Source: Bolinopsis microptera
Lineage: Eukaryota; Ctenophora; Tentaculata; Lobata; Bolinopsidae
Assembly: GCF_026151205.1 (NCBI RefSeq)
Contig: NC_087074.1
Span: forward strand, 18,799,240 to 18,863,239
Direction: 5' to 3'
Length of the DNA: 64,000 nt
Positions 20,531 through 57,387 of this stretch are shown here, piece after piece (positions within the stretch are counted from its first letter, which is position 1; every line of letters begins with the position of its first letter). A program made the position numbers and the translations under genes. Under the pieces are notes generated by a model, which saw nothing but the letters and a program-made list of their open reading frames with translations, was not told where the DNA came from and ran no database searches.

Positions 20531-21810
20531 TCCTTTATCTCAAATTGTGAAGGCTTGTTGAAGTGGAGTTATAAATATCAATACTGACTGATCTGCGTCG
20601 AGTACAGTATTTCATCATGCGATTGTGCAACAAATCTATTATCCTCGAACTTTGCATCACGTCTCATCGCTCTGATAGTGCATAGCCCTTCTGTAGTACC
20701 ACCATAATCGGTCTTCTTAAGAAACTAAGTTATTTGCAACCTTCAGCTGCTCCGTAATATTGGGAGTTTTTAATGGTGCTCTGAATATGGCAGTTATCCC
20801 CGAACCCACTGCTATTCTTCTGCTGTAAATTAATAAACGAGGTTTTCATCACTTCAACATCCCTCCTTTTGGCCGTCTTTTAATAGACCTACCGCTGAAA
20901 GGTCAACCTGGTGAATGTTTTCACCAACACCCCTAACTTCCGGTATGTAGACTGTTGAGTCTCACGGTTGGAAATACACGCATATTTTGATTTTGGCTTA
21001 CAAGTTATTGCTATTATTCATCAGTTTTACTATCTCCGAATCTGATTTCTTGATTTCCACGTACTAGGGTGCCAGTCTAATATTGAACATATTGTTTCCT
21101 GGCTGGCTGTTAACACTTGATCTTGTCGGCAGACAGTATGAATAACATTAACAAATGGAGAGACAGGAATTTAATGTCTGTCACCGGCTCATGGTTAGCG
21201 TTTGTCTGAGTTTCGCTAATATTTGGCTTATTTAAAGTTAACTAAAACTTTTCCTAAAAACTCACGACACTCTATTAGCATACTTATTCTACTGTCGTCT
21301 GTCACACATAGACGTTACAAAGAAAAGTACCTCGGCCTGACTGCCTCTAACTCACTCTCCCACAGACGTACCACTGCACAACAACATAACCGTCCCCCCC
21401 CCTCCTATCGGTCGCAGGTTCATGTTGTTATACCGTGGAGGGTCCCTGCCAATAACTGCCATCCCCCTAACCCTACATTTCCGGGAATAAGAGAAGCACT
21501 GCAGCACATAACGTTAAACAGTCCTTGAAGCCTTCTTTGTCTATGTCCAGTAGATTGGCCCGGAGCCAGGTCCCAGCTCTCTGAATATGAAGTTATCACA
21601 GCACCAACTAATAACTTAATAAGCGCCGGTGATGGATGTAGAACCATGGTGTAGCTGCCGACATTGCTCCGTTTATTAGCGTCTGCCCCACCACCGTATC
21701 CCGGTATAAATATCTAGTTTTAAAATGCTCTAAAACTTGAGATATCCGAGGATGTGCCTTGGTTCTCCAATCAGTTGATTGAAACCACATTCTAGTTCAT
21801 TTAACTTCCA
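20531..21810. other. Non-coding region
   Basis: I see no gene. Part of 20531-20760 may extend the LINE fragment, but I could not read conserved protein sequence in it. Frames near 21223-21647 on either strand have no recognisable motif. Confidence 0.35.
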
Positions 21811-46747: not shown

Positions 46748-47101
46748 CTACAGTATGTGATCCATGTGAAACACGCCTGGACTCGGATCGGAATAATGAA
46801 CTATTTAAAGCTGTTCTCTGAACAAATATTTCACATTTTCATATCATGTTGGGGCAGCTCGAGCGAAGAGACGGTCTCTGAATACAACCACATGATGTAT
46901 ATATTATACATGATAATAGGTCATTGGTCCTCATCACAAAGTAACGTAGCCAATGACCAGAGAACTGGAGCTCGCGTCTCTCTCCGAGCCATACTATTTA
47001 CAACTGAAGTGCTAACTGCTTTGTGCATGCTGTACCATGTAGATTGTTCAATTATAATTGCCTCATTTGCAACTTTTACATCTTAATAATAATAATAATA
47101 A

Positions 47102-47224
47102 GGCCCCCGCTCAGAACACCAGAGCTAGTGAGTAGTGGGTCCGAGGCTGATACTCGTGGTCAGCACCCCCGGGGTCGGTAACGGCAGCAGTCCATTGGAT
47201 GGCTGCCGGCTAGAGCTACTCACT
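47102..47224 (+). ncRNA. Candidate HDV-like self-cleaving ribozyme at the LINE 5' end
   Basis: Pairings found by eye, in order. P1: GGCCCC 47102-47107 with GGGGTC 47171-47176, with a G-U at 47103/47175. P2: AGTGAGTAG 47127-47135 with CTACTCACT 47216-47224. P3: GGGT/ACCC and GCTGA 47146-47150 with TCAGC 47160-47164. P4: CGGCAGC 47182-47188 with GCTGCCG 47202-47208. J4/2 is GCTAGAG, which contains a C. The order P1-P2-P3-P1'-P4-P2' is the nested double pseudoknot of HDV-like ribozymes, which are known at the 5' ends of R2 and related LINEs. Cleavage would fall at 47101/47102 or 47102/47103, the element start. The fold is inferred; no activity is shown. Confidence 0.55.
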
Positions 47225-48044
47225 CCCTGGCATTGCCAGATGTCTTCTTCCTGAGGTTCAGTTATAGCACAAAGTTTAAACTATTAACACTGTTAGTTCC
47301 CCCGTTACTAGTCCAAGTAACGGGCTAGAACTTGATCAAACAGCTGGTGAAACACCTGTAGACCACCAGAACCTCAGGCTCTTATGTCCCTTCTCAACAT
47401 CACTTAATGTTTTCATGAGATTTTGTACTTGCTTAATATTCATGTTTAGGAGGGAAAAAAGAAAAGAAAATTACAAAAAAAGTTAAAAAGAAAAAAAAAA
47501 GAAAAAAAAAAGCACAAAATGGAAAAACCAAGAAAAATATCTGTAACTGAGAAAGCAGTATTTTAAGATAATATATCCCCTGATTTTTATTCCATATCAT
47601 AGCAGCACAGACTGCTGGTACTGAAAGAATATCATTCCTTTGGAAATATTACTATCTATAATGTTACTATACTCGAGTAATTATAACATTGTAATCATTT
47701 TATATTTCATTGTATTGTTTGTTAATTGTCCCCCGGTTAATTCCCTTTCTTGCCTCTCGTTGGTTAAATTCTTGTATCCTTCTGCTCTAGCTCTTGGTTT
47801 GTTGACTAGGTGCAATTGACACCTAGTGGTTTTCTTATCGGGCATGGACTGACCCGCAGAAGTCCCCCAATCTTAAGTTGTGGACTCGTGACAAAAGGAT
47901 GCGTGGCCATGGGTTAAATGGTTACTAACGGGTCTACTACCCAGGAGGTAGCTACCTGGGGAGCTGGGCGACGCGGGGCAACGCTCAGTGCTCTGTTTTC
48001 CCTGCCAACTCTCTAGGGGGTATACTAAGTCCCCCAGTTATGAT

Positions 48045-51000
48045 ATGAATTCTCTCTCAAATTTTTCAAACTCTCCTACTCTCCCTACTAATGGGTCAGA
48101 GCAGGATCAACAACCTAACATCATCCCTCCAGCTCGACGTGAGAGGAAGGCTCGCACGGAGACTTCCACTCGGCACACGTGGAGCAAGGAGGACAACATA
48201 CAGCTCATGACGCTGTATTACCAGAGCCAACCATCCCGCTCTGGTTACAGGAGAAGACTCCGATCACTGTGGGATGATGCCGGACTCTTCACTTGTACGG
48301 AACAAAGATTGGCAGACCAAGCAAGGTCAATCAGAAATAATAATCTCCTTTCAGACATAGAACTACTGGAGATTCGAGGTACTCTTCCACCTAGCGTAGT
48401 GGAAGAGGCTCCAACAACGACAACTCAAGCTTTACCCACAGTCTCCCAAGCAATCAGGACGTTGAGGGATGCAACTATCCCAACTGTCGCCGCCGAAGAA
48501 CTCACCCCCACCACAACGGTACCTGATTTTGACAAGGAGGCAATCATTGAACGGCTAAAAAGGCTCCTAGAAGACCCTTCAGTGATAGAAACCAAGCCCC
48601 TGAGACATGTGAACAGAAAGAAGCTTATGGAGGAAACATCTCTCATCAACTCATGTATAGCAGAGATTCCAACTTCTTCAATCACTGAAATCAACACCCT
48701 ATTGCTTGCAGGGGCACATTTAGTCAGCGAAAGACTTGGTGAAAAACCTGCAAATAAGAATACAGGGAAACGGAATACTCCACTATGGAAAAGAAGAATC
48801 GAAGATAAGATTACCCAGGTTAGGAAAGACATCTCCTACCTTGAGGAGAAGAAGAAAGGTACTACCCTTAAACAAAAAATACTAGAAGGGCTCAACAGAC
48901 GTCACCCTCTGTTGAAGAAAAAGGGTATACCATGCATCATTGAGGAGCTCAAGCAACGTCTTCGCGCAAAAGCAGCTAAGATAAAGAGATTTAATAAAAG
49001 ATGCGAACGATACCACCAGAACAAGTTGTTTGGAAACAACCAGAGGCAGTTCTACAGAAACCTTCAAACAAACCCTGAAGAACAGGATATCTCCCACCCT
49101 GAGGCTGACAAGGATTCTTGTCTGAAGTTCTGGAAGAGCATATGGGAGCAGCCGGTTGAACACAACAGTGATGCTGAATGGTTACCGGATGTCAGAACAG
49201 CACTAGCCTCAGCAGATGAACAGAGACAGTTTGTTATAACTAACACCCTGGTTGCAGATAGAGTGAAGAAAATGACTAATTGGTCCTCTCCTGGTACAGA
49301 CGGACTGCATGCTTATTGGATAAAGCACTTTAAAGAACTCCACAATAGGATTGCAGATCAACTTATGAATTGCCTAACCAACGCTGATATCCCAGACTGG
49401 ATGACATTGGGACGCACGTACCTGCTCATCAAGGACCACTCGAAAGGACCCATCCCAGGCAATTTCAGACCGATTACTTGCTTATCAGCTATGTGGAAAC
49501 TGTTCACTGGTCTAATCTCAGATTCCATTTACCACCATTTAGACCAGCAAAAGCTCCTCCCCCCTGAGCAGAAAGGGTGCAAGAAGAAGAGTAGAGGATG
49601 TAAAGAACAGTTAATGATAGACAAACTCATCCTGAAGAACTGTAAACGAAGGAAGCGGAACCTGAACATGACGTTTATAGACTACAAGAAGGCGTATGAT
49701 AGCGTCCCACACTCCTGGATTCTATCTTGTTTGACCATGTGTGGCATCTCTTCATGCATCATAGACCTGTTTGAAGCCTCCTTCAAACAATCGTATGTTA
49801 ACCTGATGCTTGGTAAAGTTTCCCTTGGGAGAATTAAAATTAATAGAGGTCTATTCCAAGGAGACTCAGTCTCACCTATCCACTTTATCATTAGTCTTAT
49901 ACCCCTGTCCATTCTTTTGAATAAGCATGACATAGGATACTCTCTGGAGAGAGGAGGTCAACCGAAAGTGTCGCATAGGCTATATATGGACGACCTCAAG
50001 TTGTATGCCGAGAGTGAAGACGAAATGCAGACACTGGTTAATACCACAGCAGAGTTCAGCAGTGACATAAAAATGGAATTTGGGCTAGAGAAATGTGCCG
50101 TGGTGAAGGTGAAGAAGGGAGCAAGAGCCGTTTTTGAAGGCATCTCCCTACCCACAGGTGAACAGATCCATGAGTTGGAGGACGACGGCTATAAGTATCT
50201 CGGAATACTAGAAGCTAATGATATACTACACAAAGAGATGAAAGCACTGGTTACAAAAGAGTATATCAGAAGAGTTAAAAAGGTTTTGAAATCCCAGCTT
50301 CATGGCAGGAATAGTATACAAGCGATTAACACCTGGGCTGTACCTGTGATAAGATATGGAGCTGGAATTCTCTCATGGAATGCTGGGGAGACCAAAGCCT
50401 TAGATGTCAAGACCCGGAAACTGATGAGGATACATGGAGCTCACCACCCCCAAGGAGATGTTGATCGGTTATACGTCAGCCGTCAACTGGGTGGCCGTGG
50501 GCTACATAGTATAGAGGAAGTTGTTAAGAGAGAGGAGAATGCACTCACCACTTATGTGGTGAGAAGTAGAGACCCAGAACTGATTGCTCTGAAGGACTAC
50601 TTTGTCAAAGACAAGATACTCTTGGGTGAAGAGATAGAGAAAGATATTGACCGAACACAACGCGAGGAAATCCGCAAGGAGAAATGGACTGCTAAAGTGA
50701 TGCACGGACAGTTCCCAAGGCAGATGATGGGTACAGCAGACCCGTTAACCTCTTGGAACTGGCTCACCCAACAAGATTTGAAGAAGGAGACAGAAGGATT
50801 GTTGATAGCAGCCCAAGACCAAGCACTTAGGACTAATTACGTGAAGCACAGGATTGACAAAACACCTGGCTCTTCTCCCCTCTGCAGACTCTGCAGAAAT
50901 CATTACGAGACAATAGACCACATACTGAATGGGTGCCCAAAACTTTCACAGACAGAATATAAGTGTCGGCATGACAAAGTAGCTGCCGCATTGCACTGGA

Positions 51001-51452
51001 GTCTGTGCAAGGAATACGGCTTCCCACGCAGTAAAAGGTGGTACGAACACCGGGCAGAGAAGGTGCTGGAGAACGGACAAGTCAAGATATTGTGGGACTT
51101 CCATGTCCAGTCGGACCACGTTATCGAACACTGTAGACCGGATCTCCTCCTGGTAGACAAGGTAACCAACGCAGCAACCATCATTGACGTTGCAGTCCCA
51201 GGAGATACCCGGATCTTGGATAGAGAACAAGAAAAGATTCTGAAATATCAAGACCTGAAAAGAGAAATTAAGAAGAACTGGAATTTACGAAAGGTCACAA
51301 TCGTCCCTGTGGTGATAGGCGCATTAGGAACTATCACCATAAACTTTCGTAAACACCTCGACGCAGTCCACTGCAATCTGAGCATCTCTAATCTCCAGAA
51401 GACAGCTCTGCTTGGATCAGCCAGGATTCTCAGGATGGTCTTAGACATATAA
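48045..51452 (+). CDS. R2/R4-type LINE polyprotein (Myb - RT - zinc finger - REL endonuclease)
   Basis: The uninterrupted frame is open from 47952. The first ATG is 48045, giving 1135 residues. R2-type proteins often lack a normal start, so the N-terminus is uncertain. Domains, numbered from that Met: a Myb-like DNA-binding segment at about 43-106 (TWSKEDNIQLMTLYY, LWDDAGLFTCTEQRLADQAR); then reverse transcriptase with FRPITCLSAMWKLFTG, motif A DYKKAYDSV (about 545), motif B GLFQGDSVSPIHF, motif C YMDD (about 646) and YKYLGI; then a Cys/His segment CRLCRNHYETIDHILNGC (about 946); and last a PD-(D/E)XK restriction-like endonuclease with RPDLLLVD, IDVAVPGD and KYQDLKREIKK (about 1030-1075). It nicks target DNA and copies its own RNA by target-primed reverse transcription. 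All catalytic motifs are present and I see no stop or frameshift, so the copy may be active. Confidence 0.92.
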   Translation: MNSLSNFSNSPTLPTNGSEQDQQPNIIPPARRERKARTETSTRHTWSKEDNIQLMTLYYQSQPSRSGYRRRLRSLWDDAGLFTCTEQRLADQARSIRNNNLLSDIELLEIRGTLPPSVVEEAPTTTTQALPTVSQAIRTLRDATIPTVAAEELTPTTTVPDFDKEAIIERLKRLLEDPSVIETKPLRHVNRKKLMEETSLINSCIAEIPTSSITEINTLLLAGAHLVSERLGEKPANKNTGKRNTPLWKRRIEDKITQVRKDISYLEEKKKGTTLKQKILEGLNRRHPLLKKKGIPCIIEELKQRLRAKAAKIKRFNKRCERYHQNKLFGNNQRQFYRNLQTNPEEQDISHPEADKDSCLKFWKSIWEQPVEHNSDAEWLPDVRTALASADEQRQFVITNTLVADRVKKMTNWSSPGTDGLHAYWIKHFKELHNRIADQLMNCLTNADIPDWMTLGRTYLLIKDHSKGPIPGNFRPITCLSAMWKLFTGLISDSIYHHLDQQKLLPPEQKGCKKKSRGCKEQLMIDKLILKNCKRRKRNLNMTFIDYKKAYDSVPHSWILSCLTMCGISSCIIDLFEASFKQSYVNLMLGKVSLGRIKINRGLFQGDSVSPIHFIISLIPLSILLNKHDIGYSLERGGQPKVSHRLYMDDLKLYAESEDEMQTLVNTTAEFSSDIKMEFGLEKCAVVKVKKGARAVFEGISLPTGEQIHELEDDGYKYLGILEANDILHKEMKALVTKEYIRRVKKVLKSQLHGRNSIQAINTWAVPVIRYGAGILSWNAGETKALDVKTRKLMRIHGAHHPQGDVDRLYVSRQLGGRGLHSIEEVVKREENALTTYVVRSRDPELIALKDYFVKDKILLGEEIEKDIDRTQREEIRKEKWTAKVMHGQFPRQMMGTADPLTSWNWLTQQDLKKETEGLLIAAQDQALRTNYVKHRIDKTPGSSPLCRLCRNHYETIDHILNGCPKLSQTEYKCRHDKVAAALHWSLCKEYGFPRSKRWYEHRAEKVLENGQVKILWDFHVQSDHVIEHCRPDLLLVDKVTNAATIIDVAVPGDTRILDREQEKILKYQDLKREIKKNWNLRKVTIVPVVIGALGTITINFRKHLDAVHCNLSISNLQKTALLGSARILRMVLDI

Positions 51453-52154: not shown

Positions 52155-52370
52155 TCAGCTGATCCCGGGCCAGAGGAAAACTACCGACTGCCAAGGTCTG
52201 ACGCCTAGGCAGTCGAGACCTCTTATTGAGACCCTTTATAATAATAAGTAGGAATTTATACATCAGCTGATCCCGGGCCAGAGGAAAACTACCGACTGCC
52301 AAGGTCTGACGCCTAGGCAGTCGAGACCTCTTATTGAGACCCTTTATAATAATAAGTAGGAATTTATACA
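52155..52370 (-). repeat. 108-bp tandem duplication in the LINE 3' tail
   Basis: 52155-52262 and 52263-52370 are direct copies that begin TCAGCTGATCCCGGGCCAGA and end in an AATTTATA stretch. I saw no mismatch. They contain the hairpin-forming CTGCC(AAGG...CCTAG)GCAG. This is the 3' end that the element's reverse transcriptase would recognise. Confidence 0.92.
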
Positions 52371-52507
52371 TCGCTTTATATATAGCCATAAAGAACTCAA
52401 AACCCAAAGATTCAGTTCAAACCATCTAAAGCGACTCATGAGTAACATGTACATAAGAACTTATTTTTATGAAGTATGGATTTTATGAGAGAGGTAATAC
52501 ATGATAC

Positions 52508-55444
52508 TTATACAAATACGTTTTCAAAGAGATGAGTTTTTAGTTTCTTTTTAAATAAGACGATATCAGTTAGTGTTCTCAATTGATAAGGAAGCTGATT
52601 CCAAACAGAGGGTCCGCAGTAGCTGAAACTTCTCTCGGTTTTACTATAGTTTGAAATAGGAGGAACATTTAGGAGGAAATAGTCTTCTTCAGTTCTTAGT
52701 ACACGTACAGGTTGACTCTTGATGTCAATACATTTGGTGATATACTCCGGCGCTATGTTGTTGACGCATTTGAACACGGTTAGAGCAATCTTATACTCTA
52801 TTCGTTGTCGTATTGGAAGAAAATGGGCTTTTTTCAGGAATGGAGTGATACTGTCCAATTTTTTGATAGCTTTCCAACCAAACAAGAATCGAACACAGGA
52901 ATTTTGTACCTTCTGGAGTTTCTTTATGAGAAGATCGGGTAAACCGTATAAGAGTCCATTGCAGTAGTCTAGTTTTGAAAAGATCAGGCAGTGAATGAGC
53001 TGTCTTTTTAGATCATAGTTAAGCTTTGAGCCTATAACTCGAAGGTTCCTCAGATGGATGTTGCAGCAACTGATAATTGAATTTATTTGATCTTCAAATG
53101 TTAGGAATTGATCAAAAAGGACACCTAAACTTTTCACTGTGCGGGATGCATCCACAGGGTCAGCTGCATTGTCAAGTTGTATTGAATCGACTGGACATGA
53201 AGAGTAACTGTTCTTGGTCTGTACTACAAGAGCTTCTGTTTTGTTTTGGTTCAGTTTGAGTTTATTTTGGGTCATCCAGGTTTTAATATCTTCAAAACAA
53301 TTTGTTATTCTCTCTTCGATTGTTGACAGATCTCGAAATAGTGGGTTAAACTCAATGTACAGTTGAGTGTCATCTGCGTACATATGGATGTTAAATCCAT
53401 GTCTCTTTGAGATCTGATTGAGCTCCTTTGTGTAAAGTATAAACAGAATTGGACCTAGAATTGAACCTTGCGGGACTCCAATTCTAAGGAAGCATCTCTT
53501 TGATCTTGATTTATCAATAGTTACTGTGAAGGATCTGTTATTAAGGTATGATGTAAACCATTCGAGAACAGTACCTTCAAAACCAAAGTCCTTTTTTAGT
53601 TTTTTTAGGAGCAAGTGATGATTTACAGTATCAAAAGCAGCACTGAGGTCCAAAAGGAGGAGGATAACCTTGCTTTTCATGTCACTGATACAAAGAAGAT
53701 CATTGTAGATGGTAAGGGTTGCAGTTTCGCAGCTATGATTTGACCTATAACCACTTTGATGCTCAGCATGAAGATTGTGATAGTCAAGATGTTTGGTCAT
53801 CTGTTTCTGGACACTCTTTTCAATGAGTTTCGAGAGGAAAGGTAAGTTACTAATCGGTCTATAGTTGTTGAAGCTATTGATATCTCCTTTATCATCTTTG
53901 ATGGCTGGTCTGACAAGAGCACTCTTTAAGACTGACGGAAATTTTCCAGTGACAAGTGAGTCATTGATAATAAATGACACAATTGGTTTAACTTCATTAA
54001 AACACTGCATTAGAAGTTTTAGAGGGATGGGGTCCTCTTCACATTCTTTTTTGTTAAGGTCAGAAAGAATCTTTTTGAGATCATTGTCGCTTATGGTTTC
54101 AAATTGGCTCCAGGCTTCACCTTGAAATGGTTCTGAGTGGTCAAGTAGAATGTCAGCTGCAGTATCATTGTCAATGGCAGAGTAAATCTTTTCCACTTTA
54201 TCATTGAAAAACTCTTTCATCTCCTCACATAGAGTTTCAGCAGGTTTGTTATTAGGCTTCAAGTTTTTAGATATGTCCCGATCCATTAGCTGATTGACTA
54301 TTTTGTAGGTATCTTTTTTATTGTCCTCACAGCTTTGCAGACGATTTTCATAGTATAGCTGTCTAGTGGTGTTTATAACTGCCTCAGCATGCTTAACAGC
54401 TTTTTTATAGTCCAATATTGAATCTGCAGTTTGTAGTCTCCTGTTGTCACGTTCAGCTTTTCTTCGTTTCCTTCTGGCAGTTTGACATTTTGTGTCCACC
54501 CACTTGCTTTGATCAGGATTAATGCTAAAACAGATAAGGGGAGCATGTTTATCAAGAATTCTGCGAAGTTCTTTGTTATAGAGTTCTGTGGCAGAGTTGC
54601 AGTCAATAAACTTGTTGGGGTCATTTATGTCAGATAGCAACAGATCCTCTTTGAAAAGATTCATGTCTATATCTGATATCTTTCTGCCCACCATATCTTC
54701 TTTGTTGCTTCCTTTGTGGTGAGGAAAGGCAATAGAGAAATTTACGAAGTAGTGATCTGATGTTGTTACTGTTTTAGCTACATTTATATCTTTTATGTTC
54801 AACATATCACACGCATTGCTTCTAGTAAGAACAAGGTCTAAGATTCCACCCCCAATGTGTGTTGAACTGGAAATATGCTGGATGAGGCCATAGTTTGATA
54901 TGAGATGGGTAAAATTTATCGTATCAGGATCAGTGAGGTCTTCGACATGGATATTGAAGTCTCCAGCAATGATCAGTCTACCTGGAAGGTGAGTTAGACT
55001 GTCAAGATATTCATCAAATTCCCGTAAAAAGTCTGTCATTTTGGACATTTTAGCCGTACAAGATCGATAGACACAGCAGAAACGAAGAAGGTCATTGGAA
55101 CTTGACTTCAGCACACACTCAACATGTTCGAAGGATTTATGGGTCTTTGTAGGGCGTTTATTGAAGCTAAGATCTTTCTTAAAGGCAATAGCGACACCAC
55201 CTCCTCTACCAGCTCTAGATTGGTGAACAATATTATAACCTAGGTCTTTAATTTCCGCTATTTTTGACGTATCTCCCTTACGTAGCCAAGTTTCTGTCAG
55301 GAAACAGGCATTAATATTGGAGTCAGACAGTTGCTCAAATACTTGTGCAGTTTTATTACATAGTGACCTCGTGTTAAACAGTCCGACATTTAAGAGATTT
55401 GGTTGGGGAGGCGGGTTATCGTTGTGAAGTACTGTACTACTCAC
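52508..55444 (-). CDS. CR1/L2-like LINE ORF2: APE endonuclease and reverse transcriptase
   Basis: About 978 residues with no internal stop. The N-terminal 230 residues are an APE-type endonuclease (GLFNTRSL, FLTETWL, GDFNIHV, TSDHYFV). The reverse transcriptase follows, with NNYRPISNLPFLSKLIEK, motif A AAFDTVNHHLL (about 600), motif B GVPQGSILGPILFILYTKEL and motif C YADD (about 690). The C-terminus has the usual RSFSYCGPSVWNQLP segment. The frame opens at 55465 and has no ATG before about residue 130. The coordinate given is a GTG, so the true start is unknown: either re-initiation, frameshift from ORF1, or damage at the ORF1/ORF2 junction, which carries a partial duplication. It copies LINE RNA at a nicked genomic site. 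Confidence 0.92.
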   Translation of the reverse strand: MSSTVLHNDNPPPQPNLLNVGLFNTRSLCNKTAQVFEQLSDSNINACFLTETWLRKGDTSKIAEIKDLGYNIVHQSRAGRGGGVAIAFKKDLSFNKRPTKTHKSFEHVECVLKSSSNDLLRFCCVYRSCTAKMSKMTDFLREFDEYLDSLTHLPGRLIIAGDFNIHVEDLTDPDTINFTHLISNYGLIQHISSSTHIGGGILDLVLTRSNACDMLNIKDINVAKTVTTSDHYFVNFSIAFPHHKGSNKEDMVGRKISDIDMNLFKEDLLLSDINDPNKFIDCNSATELYNKELRRILDKHAPLICFSINPDQSKWVDTKCQTARRKRRKAERDNRRLQTADSILDYKKAVKHAEAVINTTRQLYYENRLQSCEDNKKDTYKIVNQLMDRDISKNLKPNNKPAETLCEEMKEFFNDKVEKIYSAIDNDTAADILLDHSEPFQGEAWSQFETISDNDLKKILSDLNKKECEEDPIPLKLLMQCFNEVKPIVSFIINDSLVTGKFPSVLKSALVRPAIKDDKGDINSFNNYRPISNLPFLSKLIEKSVQKQMTKHLDYHNLHAEHQSGYRSNHSCETATLTIYNDLLCISDMKSKVILLLLDLSAAFDTVNHHLLLKKLKKDFGFEGTVLEWFTSYLNNRSFTVTIDKSRSKRCFLRIGVPQGSILGPILFILYTKELNQISKRHGFNIHMYADDTQLYIEFNPLFRDLSTIEERITNCFEDIKTWMTQNKLKLNQNKTEALVVQTKNSYSSCPVDSIQLDNAADPVDASRTVKSLGVLFDQFLTFEDQINSIISCCNIHLRNLRVIGSKLNYDLKRQLIHCLIFSKLDYCNGLLYGLPDLLIKKLQKVQNSCVRFLFGWKAIKKLDSITPFLKKAHFLPIRQRIEYKIALTVFKCVNNIAPEYITKCIDIKSQPVRVLRTEEDYFLLNVPPISNYSKTERSFSYCGPSVWNQLPYQLRTLTDIVLFKKKLKTHLFENVFV

Positions 55445-55506
55445 GAAGTACTGTACACGATGTTTTCAACCCACGAGTCCGACATTTAGGTTGAGAAGCG
55501 TAGTCT

Positions 55507-57387
55507 TTACATGTTTTTTGAGTACTCTGTTCTTTGTCGAAGACTCTCTTTCTCCAGCATTATGATGGGACAGTTTTCAGCACCAGAGTGATGGGTGTTA
55601 CAAGATTCTCTGTATGATTCATAAGTGGAGTGTGAGCAGTTGGTGCATCTGTGACTTCTTCTGACCTCTTTGTAGGGACAAGCCCGGGTTATGTGTGATG
55701 CACTACAATACATACAAATAACATCAGTTTCCTGGCACTGAGATGAAATGTGTCCCAGTTTCTGACATCGGAAGCACTGCTTAAGATCAAATCTATCAAC
55801 TACTTTACATCTGGAATTTCCTATGTAAATGGACTGATTGTTTAACAGGAAATGCCTTATATCAGGAGACACTTTAATCCCAACAGTAGTGTAGTCTCTT
55901 CCATAATTGACATACACAACTTTAAATGTTCTATCATGCTTGGTCACCAAATCTTTAACATATTGATTCTTTTGCAGAAGCTTCACTTCCATGAAGGTTT
56001 TAACCTTCTCTCGAAATTCAGGAACTGATAGATTTTCAGAGACAATGTGGGAGATTAAGTTGTTTGGAATATTCGTAACTGTGACTTTCGGGAACATTTT
56101 CTTTGCATCATTAACAGTGATTTTGGACGAAGTTACAGCTAATGAGTTTGCAAGGGCTATTTTCCCGTCCTCTCTATCTTTTTCTGAAGGGAAGGAGATA
56201 ACAATTTTGCCTGTCTTTGGTTTAGGGGTCAAGAAGATCATGGGTATTGTACCAAGGGCTTTGCTAGCTAGCTTTCCTGCTTCTTCAAGATTAATATTAC
56301 TAGCTTCTACATTGAGGACGATAACATGATTATCAGGAGCATTATTATGGATATTGTCAGAGGGAAGTTTTTGCATAGGAGTTTCCTTCTTGGTTAGTTC
56401 TATGTAGTTCTCAGTAGCAGTACTAGTCGGGCTATCTATAGCCGATTCAGGAGACAACGCAACACTGTAGCTCTTTGAAGATGAAAGTGAACTGGTAGAC
56501 TTCATTGGACAAGCACTTAAAGAACTAGATGTTTGCAGGGCTAGGGCTGATGCACTACTAGGGATAGATGATGCACTACTAGGGGTGCTGGATCTTTGTG
56601 TAAGATTTGGTACTTCTGTGAGCAGAGAATCTATGTGTGATTTAAGTTTGATGGAAATAAGTTCTTCTACACTTGACAGTAAACTTACTTTAAAATTGCT
56701 CAAAGTTTCAATCAATGTCTTCTCATCTCCATTGCTGGAAGTTGTATCAGTGGTGATACTAGCCCCACTTTCAGTGCTAGCCACACTTTCAGTGCTAGCC
56801 ACACTCTCAGTGCTAGCCACACTCTTGGTGCTATCCATGCTTGTATTACAAGTTGAGTCCGCAGTTTTAACAGCAGTTTTTGCAAGGAGAGCTTTCTTAC
56901 AGTTAGGACATGTCCAGCCAAAGTCACCATATCTTTGGGAATATGTATTACCGTATTTGTGAATAACTGGCAAAATATTCGTCAGGAAAGTCCGTGCACA
57001 AATAGACGTGGGCATAAGTGTGCCAGCCTTATCCTTACAACATGCGTGGAAAACGTCTTTACAAATCTGACAAGAAATGGACTCATAGGCCATGTTATCA
57101 CTTTTACAGCGACAACACAGCCCTTTGGGATTAAACTTGGGGACTGCTTTTGGGTTAATGGCATTTTTCTTTGGAGGGGCTTTAGAATCTTTAGAAAAAT
57201 CTTTAGAAAAATCTTTAGAAACATCTTTAGAAACATCTTTAGAAACATCTTTAATCTTTAGTATAGGTTTTTTTGATTTAACAGTACCTTTTTCTGAGAG
57301 CTTCTTTCTCTTTTTCTCTGCTTCTTCACTGCTGGGCGTTTGGCCTGCAGCCTTGTCATTTGTCATAGCTTTGAGGCTCGGGATCAT
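55507..57387 (-). CDS. LINE ORF1: PHD-like finger and CCHC knuckles (RNA-binding)
   Basis: 626 residues from an ATG at 57387. A Lys-rich N-terminus contains tandem DVSK/DFSK repeats (about 48-70). A PHD-like Cys/His finger follows (CCRCKSDN, CQICKDVFHACC, WTCPNCKK; about 90-165). Next comes a Ser/Thr-rich linker with VASTES repeats (about 190-215). Near the C-terminus are three gag-like zinc knuckles (CFRCQKLGHISSQC at about 535, CMYCSASHITRAC, CTNCSHS). ORF1 proteins of CR1-group LINEs bind element RNA and form the RNP. PHD-type fingers are known in some CR1/L2 ORF1s. The stop is 63 bp before the ORF2 coordinate. Cytoplasmic then nuclear. Confidence 0.88.
   Translation of the reverse strand: MIPSLKAMTNDKAAGQTPSSEEAEKKRKKLSEKGTVKSKKPILKIKDVSKDVSKDVSKDFSKDFSKDSKAPPKKNAINPKAVPKFNPKGLCCRCKSDNMAYESISCQICKDVFHACCKDKAGTLMPTSICARTFLTNILPVIHKYGNTYSQRYGDFGWTCPNCKKALLAKTAVKTADSTCNTSMDSTKSVASTESVASTESVASTESGASITTDTTSSNGDEKTLIETLSNFKVSLLSSVEELISIKLKSHIDSLLTEVPNLTQRSSTPSSASSIPSSASALALQTSSSLSACPMKSTSSLSSSKSYSVALSPESAIDSPTSTATENYIELTKKETPMQKLPSDNIHNNAPDNHVIVLNVEASNINLEEAGKLASKALGTIPMIFLTPKPKTGKIVISFPSEKDREDGKIALANSLAVTSSKITVNDAKKMFPKVTVTNIPNNLISHIVSENLSVPEFREKVKTFMEVKLLQKNQYVKDLVTKHDRTFKVVYVNYGRDYTTVGIKVSPDIRHFLLNNQSIYIGNSRCKVVDRFDLKQCFRCQKLGHISSQCQETDVICMYCSASHITRACPYKEVRRSHRCTNCSHSTYESYRESCNTHHSGAENCPIIMLEKESLRQRTEYSKNM

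Follow-up and report, generated by a model that had tools for sequence, protein, structure and literature searches.

Does an element inserted in TAA repeats of the ctenophore Bolinopsis microptera encode the ribozyme which would set the 5′ end of its own RNA? The element lies on the forward strand of a 64,000-nucleotide stretch of contig NC_087074.1 (assembly GCF_026151205.1, positions 18,799,240 to 18,863,239), referred to here as the window; coordinates are window positions, and bases of the element and its 5′ module are numbered from 47102 (base 1). A preliminary description of this DNA had proposed a pseudoknot like that of the hepatitis delta virus (HDV) ribozyme at the 5′ end of a long interspersed nuclear element (LINE) of R2/R4 type. 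We found it very likely that an HDV-like self-cleaving ribozyme is encoded by the element's first 123 nt and trims the transcript before G47102. Ribozymes of this kind have already been described in R4/Dong elements, and the present one is very probably active, to judge from its HDV-type core (UCC..G in L3, the GG of P1.1 and a C in J4/2), the uniform 5′ ends of genomic copies, two compensated pairs in P2, 0.0% divergence from the window over bases 1–126 in most of the copies compared, the existence of short derivatives and the cleavage reported for Dong of Bombyx.

Within 47102–47224 the HDV-like paired (P), joining (J) and loop (L) segments can be drawn in the order P1, P2, P3, P1′, P4 and P2′ (Table 1). 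The five helices of the preliminary description can be read directly, with 6 bp in P1, 9 in P2, 3 in P3, 2 in P1.1 and 7 in P4. P1 joins bases 1–6 to bases 70–75 by a G-C, a G-U and four C-G pairs, thus including the internal G-U pair which had been announced. P2 (bases 26–34 with 115–123), which forms the pseudoknot, and P4 (47182–47188 with 47202–47208, bases 81–87 with 101–107) are both perfect, also as described. P3 (bases 36–38 with 67–69) abuts P1′, and P1.1 joins the CC at 47141–47142 to the GG at 47177–47178 (bases 40–41 with 76–77). The spacing from U to G in the L3 core UCCGAG is the same as in the L3 of HDV. In the window J4/2 (bases 108–114) reads GCUAGAG and includes C47210, the predicted catalytic base, which 11 of the 13 aligned copies keep; the exceptions are two decayed copies (L043 and L044) from an array on C12. 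The minimum-energy fold places a 4-bp hairpin, GCUC/GAGC, in J1/2; the changes in copy L038 hit both of its arms and break it. The terminal loop UACUCGU, which also resembles the L3 of HDV, was considered as the active L3 and dropped, since 8 bp and an internal loop would separate it from P1.

We searched the genome (264.7 Mb) and obtained 41 matches to 47080–47300, the window's own among them. The remaining 40 matches, which include two pieces of a single copy, were covered by 39 stretches, to which one matchless stretch on C12 was added. The element starts at base 47102 in 32 of the 38 distinct 5′ junctions of these same-genome copies and aligns from bases 2 to 14 in the other six. By pattern match, the 32 junctions comprise 21 in which TAA is followed directly by GG, 7 in which the TAA array is followed by 1–3 extra bases and 4 without a clean array; a TAA array ends at the junction in 30 of the 38. 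Three copies with similar flanks (L033, L035 and L037) were counted as one junction. Over 60 bases, compared by eye, the upstream flanks are mostly dissimilar apart from TAA; the exceptions are L018, L020 and L036, which have a common flank repeat, and L021, which resembles the C12 array. The boundary is therefore fixed by genomic copies, independently of the fold, and the claim that P1 begins where the TAA flank stops is borne out by it. It should also be mentioned that in L025 and L047 the element stands head-to-tail, directly behind the 3′ TAA tail of another copy, and that the 5′ junction of L036 (upstream of position 502) carries a tandem duplication of the element's first 20-odd bases.

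Bases 1–145 are identical in 18 aligned copies, nearly all of which have different flanks. Fourteen copies including the window's are of about full length (5126–5487 bp), and at least 10 protein matches span residues 1–1154 without a stop, among 42 matches listed (the full-protein genome search scored the best 40 of 4615 candidates). The identical first 145 bases and the stop-free protein matches make the family look recently active. A search with the 352 N-terminal residues, in which all 52 of 52 candidates were scored and which would miss a family with a dissimilar N-terminus, yielded a single family and two relics, at C1:23160858 and C10:4259492. A recognisable 5′ module was not found within the 1.6 kb examined at the C1 relic (L050), nor within the 1.8 kb examined at a chimeric copy, C10:4293115 (L049).

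We compared 13 copies to the window: L039, which has an internal deletion, and, of the 13 other copies of full length, all but L023. As these copies form few subfamilies, they do not amount to many independent observations. Over bases 1–126, 10 of the 13 differ from the window by 0.0% of reference columns, a measure which ignores the 8 nt inserted in P2 of L029; the others differ by 3.2% (L030), 6.3% (L039) and 7.9% (L031, which lacks the first ten bases). Over bases 281–400 the difference is 14–18% in 8 of the 13 copies, and 6 of the 10 copies with 0.0% over bases 1–126 differ there by 6.7 to 16.7%. The pair L024 and L013 is identical over bases 1–275, differs by 19.1% over bases 281–943 and differs by 7.0% in the open reading frame (ORF).

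The genome also holds deletion derivatives of the element: L020 (836 bp), L021 (561 or 777 bp, depending on which of its two 3′ ends is counted) and L033, L035 and L037 (567 bp each), the last three of which have common flanks and may be a single insertion. These derivatives keep roughly the first 350–490 bases and the last 200–300. This architecture, in which the 5′ module and the 3′ end are kept together as in the short internally deleted elements (SIDEs) of R2, argues by analogy that the 5′ module matters for mobility; R2 SIDEs are reported to retain only the R2 ribozyme and sequence from the 3′ untranslated region (UTR) (PMC3774820). At C12:11.42–11.457 Mb there is an array with a period of 5.55–5.73 kb, several units of which carry a short element derivative (L032, L034, L041 and L043–L046), with 5′-to-3′ distances of 544–951 bp where measurable. 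A related single stretch is found on C8 (L021).

Covariation support for the ribozyme fold is weak. Two compensated pairs were found in P2 among 13 distinct copies, G-C changing to A-U in L039 and U-A to G-C in the decayed array copy L044. In the 13-copy alignment 91.5% of cells pair, and the number of pairs with changes on both sides is 3 in the true structure vs 0.8 in shuffles, the slid controls giving no more than 2. With 19 longer rows the true structure has 5 such changes vs 1.6 in shuffles. It should be noted that several rows are C12 array copies, decayed and full of small indels, which add noise.

We then consider how often such a fold is expected by chance. On the plus strand of the window a descriptor allowing a long L3 gave the start at 47102 alone, and on the minus strand it gave three overlapping starts at 21568–21595. 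Descriptor sites are common in order-2 Markov copies of one strand (mean 1.78 per copy, n = 120), so that in a blind scan the pairing by itself is no proof. When the 129-nt stretch itself was shuffled with dinucleotides preserved, 38 of 40,000 shuffles matched anywhere and 1 of 40,000 matched with P1 at the first base; these shuffle and Markov fractions are not clean p-values, as the descriptor was composed after the sequence had been seen.

The unusual part of the fold is L3. A descriptor specifying a P1 of 6 bp, a P2 of at least 7 bp and GG after P1′ had no match when L3 was limited to 8, 12 or 20 nt, and matched with an L3 of 27–28 nt when the limit was 40 nt. The descriptor check suggested in the preliminary description thus succeeds at 47102 with a long L3 and fails with an L3 of up to 20 nt, because a 19-nt hairpin trails the L3 core. 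This inserted hairpin is most likely a peripheral stabiliser, although this is a guess, and of its five pairs the one at position 48 is disrupted in 4 of the 13 aligned copies. If it is real, descriptors and covariance models with a short L3 would miss such ribozymes. The odd L3 has a parallel in the R2 of Nasonia, where L3 spacing deviates too (PMC3774820). Large HDV-like ribozymes such as drz-Agam-2 also have an extra helix outside the core, which lies in J1/2 (P1.2), whereas the clear extra hairpin of the present element lies in L3 (PMC4908430). A loop insertion in L3 of HDV-like ribozymes was not found by one narrow phrase search of the literature, and we make no claim of novelty.

Downstream of the ribozyme we found a second folded RNA, domain 2. 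Its closing helix (47250–47259 with 47369–47378) comprises 10 perfect base pairs, and the closing strand ends where the conserved 5′ module ends. The fold of 47225–47382 has a z of −4.68 and none of 200 shuffles was as good. No match to domain 2 was found in Rfam at E up to 1, and the covariation counted in it was not decisive. Domain 2 is most likely a protein-binding or translation element, which again is a guess, and it is a concrete candidate for the role of the remaining Dong 5′ UTR. We tentatively put forward, as a possibility which we hold with some doubt, that an HDV-like variant with a hairpin inserted in L3 right after UCCNNG is coupled to this conserved multibranch domain, together forming a 5′ module of ~280 nt which subfamilies and non-autonomous derivatives would exchange and inherit as one piece.

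A number of observations weigh against an active ribozyme at this site. Sites for the descriptor were present in 83 of the 120 Markov copies, and 23 of the 120 had a site with a P2 of at least 9 bp. No family was found in Rfam for the whole window at the gathering score, and at 46900–47500 no HDV family was found at E up to 10, so the covariance-model check which had been suggested came out negative when run with Rfam. An L3 of 27–28 nt is abnormally long for an HDV-like fold, and the register of P3 is ambiguous, three alternatives having energies within 1.6 kcal/mol. The fourth base of the C-U-A-G motif in J4/2 is G, and the HDV antigenomic ribozyme has A there. Without pseudoknots the ribozyme stretch folds with a z of −0.84, 34 of 200 shuffles being at least as good. 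The 13 copies are very alike and show no compensatory change in P1, where changes break pairs, bar one-sided changes in the larger set; the compensatory pairing which the preliminary description looked for in other copies was therefore seen, weakly, in P2 and not in P1. The one both-side change in P4 stands in a row with local deletions and is possibly misaligned, and with the 19 longer rows two slid controls reach 8 and 6, above the 5 of the true structure. Finally, the conserved block ends near base 280 (~47380), past the ribozyme, which is not singled out by it. L024 and L030 differ by 1.3% in the ORF yet by 3.2–4.7% in the module, and exchange of 5′ modules may therefore explain part of the identity.

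These observations can be read in three other ways. The 5′ module may be a structured RNA without catalysis, serving in protein binding, end protection or translation, with the uniform 5′ end set by a promoter starting at 47102. The extent of conservation and folding, reaching ~47380 and so well beyond the ribozyme, is in keeping with this, and stability and other roles have been discussed for the 5′ fold of R2 (PMC12222951, PMC11331408). However, such a reading leaves unexplained why the HDV-specific core is present with P1 at the very first base, and the closest named relative, Dong of Bombyx, cleaves in vitro (PMC3774820); we consider it quite unlikely. That a G + C-rich 5′ end merely happens to permit HDV-like pairing would agree with the frequency of descriptor sites in random copies of the window and with a P1 devoid of covariation, but only 1 of 40,000 local shuffles fits at a boundary which was fixed independently, and two pairs of P2 are compensated, which makes coincidence very unlikely.

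The third reading is that of a decayed ribozyme, formerly active and now retained just for its fold. It overlaps with the non-catalytic reading, so that the likelihoods given here are not to be summed to unity. The long L3, a P1 of just 6 bp and the uncertain P3 register would suit it, and some R2 ribozymes with core changes fail to cleave (PMC3774820). Decay is hard to reconcile with a family in which 18 copies, nearly all with different flanks, are identical over bases 1–145 and in which at least 10 of the 42 listed protein matches are stop-free over their whole length, and we regard it as unlikely. A self-cleaving HDV-like ribozyme is the reading which we prefer.

As for how this ribozyme would serve the element, we propose that copies lying in scattered TAA repeats are co-transcribed with their neighbourhood and that the nascent RNA folds into a double pseudoknot, in which C47210 would help to cut the phosphodiester just before G47102. 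The cut would leave an element RNA with a defined 5′-OH end and no flanking sequence, which could be translated and then enter another TAA repeat by target-primed reverse transcription. This would account for the GG at the start of full-length copies. For ribozymes cutting exactly at the 5′ end of their element PMC3774820 describes a pattern with which both the uniform start with GG and the few extra bases seen at some junctions agree.

The element has close counterparts among known retrotransposons. HDV-like ribozymes have been reported in Dong of Bombyx and R4 of Ascaris (PMC3774820). Dong of Bombyx mori is likewise a LINE in TAA repeats with an HDV-like ribozyme at its 5′ extremity and a cut that separates the last TAA from the element; its self-cleavage was confirmed by co-transcription assays with a 21-nt upstream product equal to 7 TAA, and it differs in host and in sequence, the published primer reading TAA then GCTCCC where the present element has TAA then GGCCCC (PMC3774820). 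The Ascaris R4 ribozyme (Ruminski 2011, cited in PMC3774820) also belongs to the R4 clade and cuts at the 5′ end of its element. R2 ribozymes share the fold, a P1 of typically 6–7 bp and the task of freeing the element from a co-transcript, whereas the insertion site of R2 is 28S rDNA and its ribozyme cuts within 28S, 9–36 nt upstream, in most of the species tested (PMC3774820). A search of the literature combining Dong or R4 with TAA terms found nothing beyond this paper. A wholly new lineage of ribozyme was rejected because those of R4 and Dong are already reported; the preliminary description was right about the kind of ribozyme, its "another lineage" finds no support, and it overlooked both the L3 hairpin and the downstream domain. 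What is added here is one more member for the known R4/Dong ribozymes.

The probable assignment to Dong is suggested by the architecture and the target of the element. Its ORF matches RVT_1, and residues 399 to 1115 align with R2 proteins of solved structure (E 1.2e−28). YMDD is found at residues 666–669, a CCHC pattern at 966–983 and PD..D at 1050–1069; a C2H2 pattern was looked for in the ORF and not found. The R2 clade is characterised by insertion in 28S rDNA and one or more N-terminal C2H2 fingers, whereas the target in the copies seen is TAA and the ORF is without C2H2. A LINE with a single ORF containing a reverse transcriptase, CCHC and a restriction-like endonuclease, inserted in TAA repeats, is what is expected of Dong/R4. 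The element thus appears to be an R2-like LINE, and its architecture and TAA insertion fit Dong of the R4 clade.

Table 1 Features of the element and its 5′ flank in the window.
Feature	Position	Strand	Basis
Target TAA repeats, 5′ flank; six units, stopping exactly at the element	47084–47101	+	Sequence; copy junctions
P1 5′ strand, GGCCCC; starts the element, with the cut predicted before 47102	47102–47107	+	Fold, copy junctions
J1/2, 19 nt	47108–47126	+	Sequence, minimum-energy fold
P2 5′ strand	47127–47135	+	Fold; two compensated pairs
P3 5′ strand, GGG	47137–47139	+	Fold
L3 core, UCCGAG; its CC is the P1.1 5′ strand	47140–47145	+	Fold
Hairpin inserted in L3, 19 nt, GCUGA-UACUCGUGG-UCAGC	47146–47164	+	Fold, sequence
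P3 3′ strand, CCC	47168–47170	+	Fold; register uncertain by up to 2 nt
P1 3′ strand, GGGGUC	47171–47176	+	Fold
P1.1 3′ strand, GG	47177–47178	+	Fold
P4 hairpin, 7 bp	47182–47208	+	Fold
J4/2, GC[U/A]AGAG; C47210 is the predicted catalytic C	47209–47215	+	Fold, copy alignment
P2 3′ strand	47216–47224	+	Fold; two compensated pairs
Small hairpin CUGGCA/UGCCAG between ribozyme and domain 2	47227–47239	+	Fold
Domain 2, second folded RNA	47250–47378	+	Fold, conservation
Single ORF, 1154 aa when begun at GTG; first ATG 48045	47988–51452	+	Reverse transcriptase with YMDD, CCHC, restriction-like endonuclease motif
3′ end of the element, ...GAGACCCTTTA then TAATAATAA, two 108-bp tandem copies	52155–52372	+	Sequence, 3′ ends of copies

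At the other extremity, copies end in GAGACCCTTTA, or in GAGACCCGATA in one subfamily, usually with TAATAA next; TAA follows in most copies whose 3′ ends were inspected. In the window the element's final ~90 bases and the 3′ flank form two perfect tandem copies of 108 bp. Three different flanks recur past the 3′ TAA, one in the window, L017 and L027, one in L013, L029 and L039 and one in L015, L023 and L030, as though TAA tracts within other repeat families were a frequent landing site. Further downstream, on the minus strand at 52508–57387, there are two adjacent ORFs which resemble a second LINE, one of 978 aa with a reverse transcriptase and an exo/endonuclease domain and one of 626 aa with a CCHC match just below the Pfam cut-off.
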